DNA of 64,000 nt from Nitrospira sp. (GTDB lineage Bacteria; Nitrospirota; Nitrospiria; Nitrospirales; UBA8639): assembly GCA_011523385.1 (NCBI GenBank), contig WTGX01000034.1, positions 1-64,000 on the forward strand. The letters are read 5' to 3'. Of this stretch, positions 4,995-8,362 are shown piece by piece (within the stretch, counting starts at the first letter, position 1; every line of letters starts with the position of its first letter). Made by a program: the position numbers and the translations under genes. The notes under the pieces were generated by a model, which ran no database searches, had not been told where the DNA came from, and saw only the letters and a list, made by a program, of their open reading frames with translations.

Positions 4995-5231
4995 TCACTC
5001 CTTACTTAAGAGTCCAGAACCGCGGCGACCGTTACAATCGACGGTTCGTCGCAAACCGGGACGTTCGATCTCCACGTTGACATGCTTGCAGCCGAAGGCT
5101 TCAAATTGGCGTTCCACAAAATGAGAAGCCATGCCGGGGAGGAGCATCCAAAGCGCGAGGCCGAGCGACGCCAATACCCCCAGACCCCAAACCACCTTGC
5201 CCCAAAAGGGAATTGAACGTTTGACCGCCAT
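4995..5231 (-). CDS. Short membrane-anchored protein, possible truncated remnant
   Basis: This is a 78-residue reading frame with one hydrophobic helix (VVWGLGVLASLGLALWMLLPGM) and then about 40 polar residues (FEAFGCKHVNVEIERPGL). This is the layout of the N-terminus of large YdbH/AsmA-like envelope proteins, where a membrane anchor precedes a beta-rich domain. At 78 residues it could be a remnant. Its ATG overlaps the ATG of the divergent oxygenase at 5230 on the other strand, so one of the two starts may be wrong. Confidence 0.35.
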   Translation of the reverse strand: MAVKRSIPFWGKVVWGLGVLASLGLALWMLLPGMASHFVERQFEAFGCKHVNVEIERPGLRRTVDCNGRRGSGLLSKE

Positions 5232-5961
5232 GATGAGATCGCAGCGAAACCTCGCGTCAGGCCTTCCGAACTTTCATGCCGTGGATTGGATTCGTGTCGA
5301 ACATTCGATCCTCACGAGTGGGCATGCCCATTTGCCGCGCGTTGTGCAATCCCCGGCTTGTCGATCCCTGCGAACCCTCTACGACGACGACCGCTGGTTT
5401 CGATCCAGGATCGTCATGGGCCGGTATAATTTCGGACAGGGAGAGTACTCGTATTTTGCGTATCCGTTGCCGACGCTGGTTTCTCATATACGAACGCACT
5501 TGTATACGCATCTGGCCCCCATTGCCAACCGCATGATGGACCGTCTGAACCGCTCCCCGCGATACCCCGCAACCCTCACGGCCTTTCACAAAGACTGTCG
5601 CCGCCACGGACAAATCCAACCCACTCCCTTGCTGCTCCGGTATCACGGCGGAGATTTCAATTGTTTGCACCGGGACGTCTATGGCCCAACGCTCTTTCCC
5701 CTGCAAGCCATGGTCATGTTGAGCCGGAAAGGACAAGAGTTCGAAGGCGGTGAATTCGTGCTCGTCGAAAACCGGCCTCGACAACAGGCCCGCGTGACCG
5801 CGTTCAATCCGGATTTGGGAGACATCATTATCTTTCCCGTTCATGAACGGCCAGTCCGGGGGAAGCGCGGATACGTCCGGGCTTCGATGCGGCACGGGGT
5901 CAGTCCGGTCAGGACCGGTCAGCGCTACGTGCTGGGTGTTATTTTTCACGAAGCGCAATAG
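5230..5961 (+). CDS. 2OG-Fe(II) oxygenase
   Basis: From the ATG at 5230 the protein is 243 residues. It contains the iron-binding facial triad of 2-oxoglutarate dioxygenases: His147 and Asp149 in CLHRDVYG, and a distal His222 in MRHGVSP. Arg follows about ten residues later in GQRYVLG and would bind the 2OG carboxylate. The FEGGEFVLVENRP and GDIIIFP blocks match the double-stranded beta-helix of prolyl-hydroxylase-like members. The substrate is unknown. An in-frame extension upstream to 5131 lies antisense over the neighbouring small gene and is unlikely to be translated. Confidence 0.8.
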   Translation: MMRSQRNLASGLPNFHAVDWIRVEHSILTSGHAHLPRVVQSPACRSLRTLYDDDRWFRSRIVMGRYNFGQGEYSYFAYPLPTLVSHIRTHLYTHLAPIANRMMDRLNRSPRYPATLTAFHKDCRRHGQIQPTPLLLRYHGGDFNCLHRDVYGPTLFPLQAMVMLSRKGQEFEGGEFVLVENRPRQQARVTAFNPDLGDIIIFPVHERPVRGKRGYVRASMRHGVSPVRTGQRYVLGVIFHEAQ

Positions 5962-6287: not shown

Positions 6288-6352
6288 TCTAATGAAGATA
6301 GAGAATGCGCCACCCCATTGCCATCGATGATTCGCTAAACAGGAGGCACGAC

Positions 6353-7456
6353 ATGACCGGCAACAAAGCACAGAAGGGGTTTCTCCACGTCCTCAAAGAT
6401 TCTCGCCCTCGATGGGTTCTGATCGCAGGAGTCCTGCTGCTCTTTGTCAGCATTCAGACCGGCATGACCCAGGCAGATTCTTCGTCAGGCTCAGGGCACG
6501 CTCCCTTTCAGCTGACCCTCCCGTTGGGATTGGACAAAGACAGCCTCGTGATCCCCGAGGACAACCCCCTAACCACAGAAAAAGTGGAACTGGGGAAACT
6601 GCTCTTCTTTGATAAACGGTTGTCGGCAAATGATACGATCGCCTGTGCAAGCTGTCACATGCCGTCCCTGGCCTTTACGGACGGGCAACCGGTCTCCGCG
6701 GGCATTCATGGACAAAAAGGCGGACGCAGTGCTCCGACGGCCATCAACCGGGTCTTCAGCTCGGCCCAATTTTGGGATGGGCGGGCAGCCACGCTCGAGG
6801 AGCAATCCGTTGGGCCATTCGCCAACCCCATCGAGCATGGATTCAAGGACCACGACGAACTCGTGGCCAAAGTGAAGGGCATTGCCGGCTATGGCCCTTT
6901 ATTTGAACGGGCCTTCGGCTCGCCTGCCATTACGACTGAGCTGATCGGCAAAGCCATTGCCAGTTTTCAACGCACCCTCCTTTCCGGGAACAGCGCCTAT
7001 GACCGCTTCACCATGGGAAACGAGGAGCAGGCGTTATCGGCCAACGCCCAAAACGGGCTTCGTGTGTTCCTGGGGAAGGGACAGTGTCTCCGCTGTCATT
7101 TCGGATTCAATTTTACGGACGAGCAATACCATAACCTTGGGGTCGGCTCGAACAAAAAGGAGAGCGACGTCGGTCGCCAGGCCGTGACGAAGAAGGCCGA
7201 AGACACGGGCGCGTTCAAAACGCCGACTCTTCGTGAAATCGCCAAAACGGCACCCTACATGCACGACGGCAGCCTGGCGACTTTGCGCGAGGTGGTCGAT
7301 TTCTACGATCAGGGCGGAATCCCGAATCCCCGGCTTGATCCGGTAATCAAGCCCTTGAAGTTGACGGAGCAGGAAAAGAAAGACCTGGTGGAGTTTATGG
7401 AGTCACTGAACGGGGAGGGTTGGAACGTCACGCCGTCAACCCAATTCCCCCGGTAG
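6353..7456 (+). CDS. Di-haem cytochrome c peroxidase (CcpA/MauG family)
   Basis: The start at 6353 follows a strong AGGAGG at 6341; the in-frame ATG at 6305 has no such site. The 367-residue product has a basic N-terminus and a hydrophobic signal segment (VLIAGVLLLFVSIQTGMTQA). It has two haem c motifs, CASCH at about residue 98 and CLRCH at about residue 245, and conserved blocks (FFDKRLSANDTIACASCH, FWDGRAATLEEQ, FKTPTLREIAKTAPYMHDGS) of bacterial di-haem peroxidases. It should reduce hydrogen peroxide in the periplasm with electrons from a small cytochrome or cupredoxin; a MauG-like oxidation role is the alternative. MITE copy 1 lies just upstream and may affect its promoter. Confidence 0.92.
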   Translation: MTGNKAQKGFLHVLKDSRPRWVLIAGVLLLFVSIQTGMTQADSSSGSGHAPFQLTLPLGLDKDSLVIPEDNPLTTEKVELGKLLFFDKRLSANDTIACASCHMPSLAFTDGQPVSAGIHGQKGGRSAPTAINRVFSSAQFWDGRAATLEEQSVGPFANPIEHGFKDHDELVAKVKGIAGYGPLFERAFGSPAITTELIGKAIASFQRTLLSGNSAYDRFTMGNEEQALSANAQNGLRVFLGKGQCLRCHFGFNFTDEQYHNLGVGSNKKESDVGRQAVTKKAEDTGAFKTPTLREIAKTAPYMHDGSLATLREVVDFYDQGGIPNPRLDPVIKPLKLTEQEKKDLVEFMESLNGEGWNVTPSTQFPR

Positions 7457-7477: not shown

Positions 7478-8347
7478 TTACCGCACGCCGGATAACAAGG
7501 CTCCGCTGAACCGTCCCTGATACACCTCGGTGACGGGACCTTTCAGGGTCAGGCTGTACTGGGCATCCACCGTGATGTCCAGTCGGCCGCCGGGAGCCAG
7601 CACCTTGACCGGACTTTTCACCAACCCCAAGCGAACCCCCGCACTGGCCACCGCGCAGGCGGATGAGCCGGACGCCTGCGTCTCTCCGGCACCCCGCTCC
7701 CAGATCAAAATGGACACGGCGTGAGGGCCCGTGGGAAACGCCAGTTGCACGTTCGTGCGCTTGGGAAAGGTGGGATGGGTTTCCAATTCCGGTCCCATGC
7801 GAAGTAGATCCTCTCGCGTCCACGGCCCGCCCCGGTCCCTGAACACCACACAGTGCGGGTTGCCGACACTCACCCCTGTGAATCGCAGGGACTGCCCGAC
7901 GGCCTTGATCGGTTGCATGATCAACTCCGGGGCTTTGATGGTGCAGGGCAAGTCCCTCGGACTGAACGAGGCCCGCCCCATATCCACGGTTGCGCCGTTC
8001 ACCCGCCCTTTCCCGTCCAACGTCAATTCCACGCGGACGAGCCCACCTTTGGTTTCAACTGAAAAAGACCGGCGCTTCGTCCTTTTCGTGGCATAGAGGA
8101 AACAGCCGAAAATGCGCAAGCCGTTTCCCGACTTTTCCGCTTCACTCCCATCCGGGTTGAAAATCCGCAACCCGAAGTCGGCCTTTTTGGAGGGCACCAG
8201 GGCCAGGATCCCGTCACTCCCCACCCCCCAATGTCGATCACAGATTGCCCGAATGGTTTTGGCGGTCAGTTTGAACGTCAACTGTGCGGGCTCAAGGGCA
8301 ATATAATCATTGCCCAACCCGTGGCCTTTGAAAAAGGTATTGCTCAT
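7478..8347 (-). CDS. dapF: DapF-like epimerase homologue with both catalytic Cys replaced by Ser
   Basis: The product has 289 residues from the ATG at 8347. The fold signatures of diaminopimelate epimerase are intact: FKGHGLGNDYI at the N-terminus, FNPDGSEAEKSGNG, VGNPHCVVF and ERGAGETQASGSSACA. In characterised DapF the two racemising bases are cysteines in 'CGNG' and 'ACGSGACA'. Here these positions are Ser73 (codon TCG) and Ser226 (codon TCC). All other substrate-binding motifs look conserved. DapF interconverts LL- and meso-diaminopimelate for lysine and peptidoglycan. This protein may be a weak epimerase, act on another substrate, or be non-catalytic. The symbol marks family only. Confidence 0.8.
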   Translation of the reverse strand: MSNTFFKGHGLGNDYIALEPAQLTFKLTAKTIRAICDRHWGVGSDGILALVPSKKADFGLRIFNPDGSEAEKSGNGLRIFGCFLYATKRTKRRSFSVETKGGLVRVELTLDGKGRVNGATVDMGRASFSPRDLPCTIKAPELIMQPIKAVGQSLRFTGVSVGNPHCVVFRDRGGPWTREDLLRMGPELETHPTFPKRTNVQLAFPTGPHAVSILIWERGAGETQASGSSACAVASAGVRLGLVKSPVKVLAPGGRLDITVDAQYSLTLKGPVTEVYQGRFSGALLSGVR

Positions 8348-8362
8348 TGTCTCTCGCAATCA

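Follow-up and report, generated by a model that had tools for sequence, protein, structure and literature searches.

Diaminopimelate (DAP) epimerase, DapF, interconverts LL-DAP and meso-DAP. Catalysis by a thiol/thiolate pair is regarded as the hallmark of amino-acid racemases that need no cofactor, and to our knowledge all studied DAP epimerases have catalytic cysteines at both positions. Here we describe a dapF homologue from Nitrospira sp. in which both cysteines are serine (Ser/Ser, as opposed to the canonical Cys/Cys). It is located in a stretch of 64,000 nucleotides, here called the window (GenBank assembly GCA_011523385.1, contig WTGX01000034.1, positions 1 to 64,000). Comparison of its relatives and their gene order suggests that Ser/Ser DapF is probably a functional LL-DAP/meso-DAP epimerase that works with a Ser/Ser pair and has displaced the Cys/Cys enzyme. 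Canonical Cys/Cys DapFs (TIGR00652; H. influenzae, E. coli, Anabaena 9mro, P. aeruginosa 8qzy) have the fold in common with the window protein (Z 33–38), along with ~35–39% identity for the best bacterial structures, the same DAP contacts and the same DAP/lysine pathway context. In contrast to these enzymes, the window protein belongs to a separate clade with serine at both catalytic cysteines and with fixed Tyr15, Lys72, Ser229, and Ile79.

Other described proteins share part of this pattern. The 4-hydroxyproline 2-epimerase B9JQV3, a natural two-base epimerase from the related proline racemase superfamily, has the overall fold in common with the window protein, and in this active enzyme a Ser on one face, opposite a Cys, is catalytic (PMC4113996). 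It retains one Cys, acts on another substrate, and is 11–15% identical to the window protein, which has Ser on both faces rather than the one Ser and one Cys of the superfamily's Ser/Cys members. The activity of this Ser/Cys enzyme shows that a DapF-like fold can work with serine on one face. A known dehydrating enzyme of related fold resembles the window protein in having no cysteine at either position and a catalytic Ser, but dehydration needs only one base and involves no stereoinversion. O-ureidoserine racemase (7vdy) and the CntK and HisR histidine racemases also have the DapF-like fold; they are Cys/Cys enzymes with other substrates, whereas the window protein keeps the contacts to the distal end of DAP. 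Engineered H. influenzae DapF C73S and C217S (2q9h, 2q9j) have Ser at one of the two same positions, but they are laboratory single mutants with none of the other clade-specific changes. Fold relatives of the PhzF/proline racemase kind are 11–20% identical to the window protein, which has no NCBIfam PhzF or hydroxyproline-dehydratase match; in one relative (L083) such matches fall below cut-off (22.3 and 19.8 bits).

The gene and its distinctive codons are listed here, with residue frequencies from a comparison of 41 Ser/Ser and 33 Cys/Cys representatives.

7478..8347, minus strand: Ser/Ser-type dapF, 289 amino acids plus stop (TIGR00652, 225.9 bits; PF01678; AlphaFold2 DapF fold).
8303..8305, minus strand: Tyr15 codon; Tyr in 41/41 Ser/Ser, Phe in 33/33 Cys/Cys.
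8132..8134, minus strand: Lys72 codon; Lys in 40/41 Ser/Ser (1 Arg), Met or Phe in Cys/Cys enzymes.
8129..8131, minus strand: Ser73 codon TCG, motif EAEKSGNGLR, stands in place of the first catalytic cysteine and N-caps helix 74–86.
7670..7672, minus strand: Ser226 codon TCC, motif ETQASGSSACAV, stands in place of the second catalytic cysteine and N-caps helix 227–239.
7661..7663, minus strand: Ser229 codon; Ser in 40/41 Ser/Ser, Gly in 32/33 Cys/Cys.

The start codon is the ATG at 8347, and an in-frame TTG is also present at 8359. The protein exceeds the cut-off of the NCBIfam DapF family TIGR00652 (225.9 versus 114.65 bits), and PF01678 matches both of its halves (168.9 bits; cut-off 34.7). 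An AlphaFold2 model (predicted local distance difference test score 94.7) has the DapF fold with two pseudosymmetric halves and best matches closed, inhibitor-bound DapF (9mro, Z 37.6, 1.8 Å over 270 residues; 3ejx, Z 36.5). A reading made earlier from the DNA letters alone (the sequence-only reading) had aligned Ser73 and Ser226 exactly with the catalytic cysteines and found the neighbouring motifs kept. Column-by-column comparison with solved DapFs (EVEQ-C-GNG; TQA-C-GTGACA) bears this out: the two serines fall in the same columns as the cysteines, and the window protein has neither catalytic Cys of DapF. In the model each serine lies just before its helix, as the DapF cysteines do.

Among the best 80 loci from 84,980 GTDB species genomes, all 80 are Ser/Ser, with one sequence (L086) ending before the second motif. 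Relatives of the window locus in this set come from Nitrospirales and Nitrospira metagenome-assembled genomes (MAGs). In total, Ser/Ser loci span over a dozen phyla, occurring in Nitrospirota, Gemmatimonadota, Latescibacterota, Myxococcota, Dadabacteria, Aquificota (Persephonella, Sulfurihydrogenibium), Bacteroidota (Flavobacterium, Apibacter), Ignavibacteriota, Bacillota (Neobacillus, Clostridium), Dictyoglomota, Methylomirabilota, Rokubacteria, Armatimonadota, and Chloroflexota. A set of 179 distinct DapF sequences, drawn around the query and so not reflecting natural frequencies, contains 131 Ser/Ser, 44 Cys/Cys, and 4 Ser/Cys members. In a tree computed without the columns that define the Ser/Ser trait, the Ser/Ser sequences make up one side of a single branch (support 99/99), and one change suffices to explain them. 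Serine is encoded by both AGY and TCN codons at position 73 and by TCN only at position 226. The ratio of nonsynonymous to synonymous substitution rates for Ser/Ser dapF against same-genus copies (~0.06–0.11) indicates purifying selection. Alignment of close homologues, which the sequence-only reading had proposed, therefore identifies Ser/Ser as the trait of one clade, and its view that such a double change is not random decay holds up. A sequencing or assembly error was rejected, given Ser/Ser across the 80 retrieved loci and the use of both serine codon families at position 73; the tree likewise rejects a recent local mutation. By the two-cysteine rule the window protein is not a Cys/Cys DapF, and we place it in a Ser/Ser sister clade that likely works like DapF. 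Two distinct Ser/Ser dapF genes (L235 and L236) occur together in one Nitrospirota genome (G127, family f18).

Natural Ser73/Cys226 hybrids on a Cys/Cys-type background were also found: L145 and L176:7459-8289 (G055), L245 (G194), L246 (G216), and L252 (G214). The hybrid gene occupies the canonical locus in G055, G194, and G216, and adjoins lysA in G214. These hybrids require two changes on the tree and share GGDG where their Cys/Cys relatives have GADG. These Ser/Cys DapFs are natural parallels to B9JQV3, with its Ser opposite a Cys.

The strongest evidence that Ser/Ser DapF does the job of DapF is the displacement of the canonical gene. Two Cys/Cys Nitrospirales genomes, G038 and G044, have the order lysA-dapF-dapA-dapB-dapL, with arg genes upstream of lysA in G038 and the contig starting inside lysA in G044. 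We compared 47 Nitrospirota genomes, 30 with a Ser/Ser gene and 17 without one (13 Cys/Cys, of which G224 was classed by identity only, and 4 Ser/Cys). All 17 genomes without the Ser/Ser gene have dapF 41–684 bp from lysA, and in 16 of them it lies between lysA and dapA (lysA–dapA gap 918–1670 bp). In 30/30 Ser/Ser genomes, lysA is followed directly by dapA (gap 47–204 bp), and the Ser/Ser dapF is found at least 50 kb from this locus or on another contig. The contrast gives a Fisher p of ~1e-11, although these are related genomes and the value reflects few events, not thirty. A second setting is provided by Flavobacterium panacis (L093). A search of 120 Flavobacteriaceae found Ser/Ser DapF in this species alone, and its genome has no other DapF; 29/29 other Flavobacteriaceae DapFs read are Cys/Cys. 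This is a separate, independent replacement of the Cys/Cys gene. Genes for a DUF5686 protein and an inorganic pyrophosphatase flank the F. panacis gene, which seems to have arrived by transfer fairly recently.

Copy number is consistent with this exchange. The sequence-only reading had called for a search for a second DapF with canonical cysteines; none was detected with PF01678 in the window's own genome (2.5 Mb, rated 100% complete), making the Ser/Ser gene its only detectable DapF. Exactly one TIGR00652 match is present in 41/45 named genomes with a Ser/Ser gene, and the other four add a Cys/Cys copy (a deltaproteobacterial MAG, Neobacillus cucumis, Clostridium sp. LS, and a Bacillota MAG). 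In the phylum survey, G109 and G118 also hold both forms. A single DapF is likewise seen in the single-contig genomes G009, G010, G053, G164, G192, G196, G198, and G200, and in the closed genome of Nitrospira moscoviensis (NZ_CP011801, G067), where it is Ser/Ser; the absence of canonical DapF is thus not an assembly artefact. Six genomes (G012, G013, G035, G056, G128, and G217) gave no DapF match, and several of these are rated 95–99% complete, reflecting either assembly gaps or true absence. The second copy in N. cucumis (L158) is a Cys/Cys homologue whose branch is exceptionally long (3.7 changes per column) and whose ACGTAMSA motif is unusual; it may be a different racemase.

The surrounding pathway also calls for an epimerase. 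The window's genome encodes the LL-DAP aminotransferase DapL (G000:C25, 622 bits, above the equivalog cut-off), LysA (526 bits), DapA (376 bits), and a DapB 63% identical to the copy in G055. Its MurE carries the DNPR motif, which marks DAP-adding MurE and is present in all 11 MurE read. Ser/Ser genomes examined keep LysA and DAP-type MurE, and nearly all have a DapL-type aminotransferase. A bypass through meso-DAP dehydrogenase was rejected: nothing scored above cut-off in 38 genomes and the window's genome had no match at all, with full-length matches in G037, G053, and G068 reaching 116–129 bits against a cut-off of 180.6. Gram-positive type DapE has no match in the window's genome, in agreement with the DapL route. 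LL-DAP is made by DapL and meso-DAP is used by LysA; given these two enzymes and no convincing meso-DAP dehydrogenase, LL-to-meso epimerisation is expected. Elsewhere, a Bacteroidales MAG (L087) has the operon-like order dapL-lysA-dapF(Ser/Ser), and dapL adjoins Ser/Ser dapF in Ignavibacteria L090 and Chloroflexota L099. Overall, a sole DapF, DapL, LysA, DapA, a DNPR MurE, and the displacement of canonical dapF place the window gene in the DAP/lysine pathway. The sequence-only reading had reasoned that, with this as the only DapF, some other route to meso-DAP would be required. This is less likely: canonical dapF is lost exactly where the Ser/Ser gene occurs, which suggests that the Ser/Ser protein itself makes meso-DAP. 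We consider with good confidence, on this genomic evidence, that the window protein would act as a DAP epimerase in vivo.

How serine might replace the thiols is suggested by the residues that the clade keeps and those that it has changed. Ser73 and Ser226 are invariant (41/41), and the DAP contacts, listed from PMC12039745, are kept in 40–41/41 (Asn13, Asn64, Asn163, Asn199, Glu217, Arg218, and the helix N-terminal backbone positions). Positions fixed in the clade and different from Cys/Cys enzymes include Tyr15, Lys72, Ser229, and Ile79 (Cys in 32/33 Cys/Cys), among others. Tyr15 and Asn13 lie two residues apart on one predicted strand and so should face the same way; the Asn matching Asn13 contacts the amine at the reacting centre in canonical DapF (PMC12039745). 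At the Ser229 position, canonical DapF has a glycine whose backbone NH bonds the thiolate sulfur, and helix N-termini are thought to lower the pKa of the cysteines (PMC12039745). Lys72 adjoins Ser73, and because no basic residue comes within 4 Å of the thiols in canonical DapF (PMC12039745), it is a candidate tuning residue. Of the meanings offered by the sequence-only reading, altered chemistry is the likely one: the acid-base residues are changed as a clade trait, with the DAP contacts kept.

We propose that the Ser/Ser clade would have originated once and then spread among phyla, and that in Nitrospirales the Ser/Ser gene would have replaced the canonical dapF between lysA and dapA. During catalysis, one serine hydroxyl would take the alpha-proton from one face and the other would donate a proton on the opposite face, with the alkoxide character of serine stabilised by the helix N-terminus and perhaps also by Lys72 and Tyr15. 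We lean slightly towards Ser73 and Ser226 as the predicted direct acid/base pair. The fullest version of this reading is evenly balanced in our judgement: a widespread natural cofactor-free amino-acid epimerase without catalytic cysteine, using a Ser/Ser two-base reaction tuned by Lys72/Tyr15/Ser229, that displaced the Cys/Cys enzyme of a central pathway more than once.

Several points weigh against a Ser/Ser epimerase. Thiols are much stronger acids than hydroxyls, and E. coli dapF mutants are viable, so a poor epimerase need not be lethal. Relatedness among the 30 and 17 Nitrospirota genomes leaves few independent events, and six genomes in all hold Ser/Ser and Cys/Cys genes together. Cys-to-Ser mutants of the Cys-type PddB keep <0.1% activity, and the same source cites M. 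tuberculosis DapF as similar (PMC8225329). HisR Cys-to-Ser mutants are also strongly impaired (PMC11602996).

The best surviving alternative, which we regard as unlikely, is a DAP epimerase in which Lys72, Tyr15, or the invariant Cys36 carries out the proton transfers and the serines merely position substrate or water. Tyr15, Lys72, and Ser229 are fixed along with both serines, unlike in Cys/Cys enzymes, and the lack of any basic residue within 4 Å of the canonical thiols makes Lys72 a real change (PMC12039745). However, the serines occupy the places of the canonical cysteines at the helix N-caps and do not vary in the 41 representatives. Cys36 may be a replacement base, but Cys/Cys enzymes keep it just as invariantly, and 4/41 Ser/Ser proteins have Ser instead of Cys231; both are therefore unlike replacement bases, and canonical activity through other cysteines was rejected. 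Less probable still is a racemase or epimerase of a different amino acid, with meso-DAP supplied by an unrecognised enzyme. The DapF fold does include racemases of other amino acids (7vdy, CntK, HisR), and the coexistence of Ser/Ser and Cys/Cys genes in six genomes would fit separate substrates. Against this, the distal-end DAP contacts Asn64, Asn163, Asn199, Glu217, and Arg218 are all kept, the Ser/Ser gene and canonical dapF, with few exceptions, do not occur in the same genome, as seen in two unrelated settings, and the Ser/Ser gene adjoins lysA and/or dapL in other phyla. The different substrate raised by the sequence-only reading thus finds no support, nor does the regulator it also raised, since all known DAP contacts are kept and the gene takes the place of dapF in lysine/DAP synthesis. 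A paralogue that has lost catalysis and persists as a binding protein or regulator, such as an RppH partner, is very improbable even though E. coli DapF binds RppH (6d13, 6vck) and a non-catalytic role therefore exists in the family, as a live DapF should sit alongside it, yet 41/45 genomes have no other, and the invariant helix N-caps and DAP contacts indicate an active site under selection.

Next to the Ser/Ser dapF, and convergent with it, is a gene for a MauG/MbnH-like di-heme protein (window 6305-7456, plus strand); at nine or more related loci, a relative of this gene is the neighbour of the Ser/Ser dapF. Positions 5131-5961 (plus strand) encode a member of PF09859 (Oxygenase-NA), a 2-oxoglutarate-Fe(II) oxygenase family with a described action on damaged DNA.

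Our literature search, which most subscription journals lay outside, found no paper on a Ser/Ser DapF and no useful paper on the peptidoglycan composition of Ser/Ser organisms; within the searchable papers, no precedent for a Ser/Ser epimerase was found. Annotation pipelines label the Ser/Ser form as plain DapF, and the variant therefore passes unnoticed. The Cys/Cys, Ser/Cys, and Ser/Ser enzymes offer a natural comparative series for the study of mechanism. DapF is also an antibacterial target, and cysteine-alkylating inhibitors should miss Ser/Ser enzymes; if the proposal is correct, neither thiol-directed DapF inhibitors nor thiol oxidation would affect the Ser/Ser epimerase. Finally, such an enzyme would mean that deprotonation of an amino-acid alpha-carbon is possible without a thiol, in a clade that spans over a dozen phyla.
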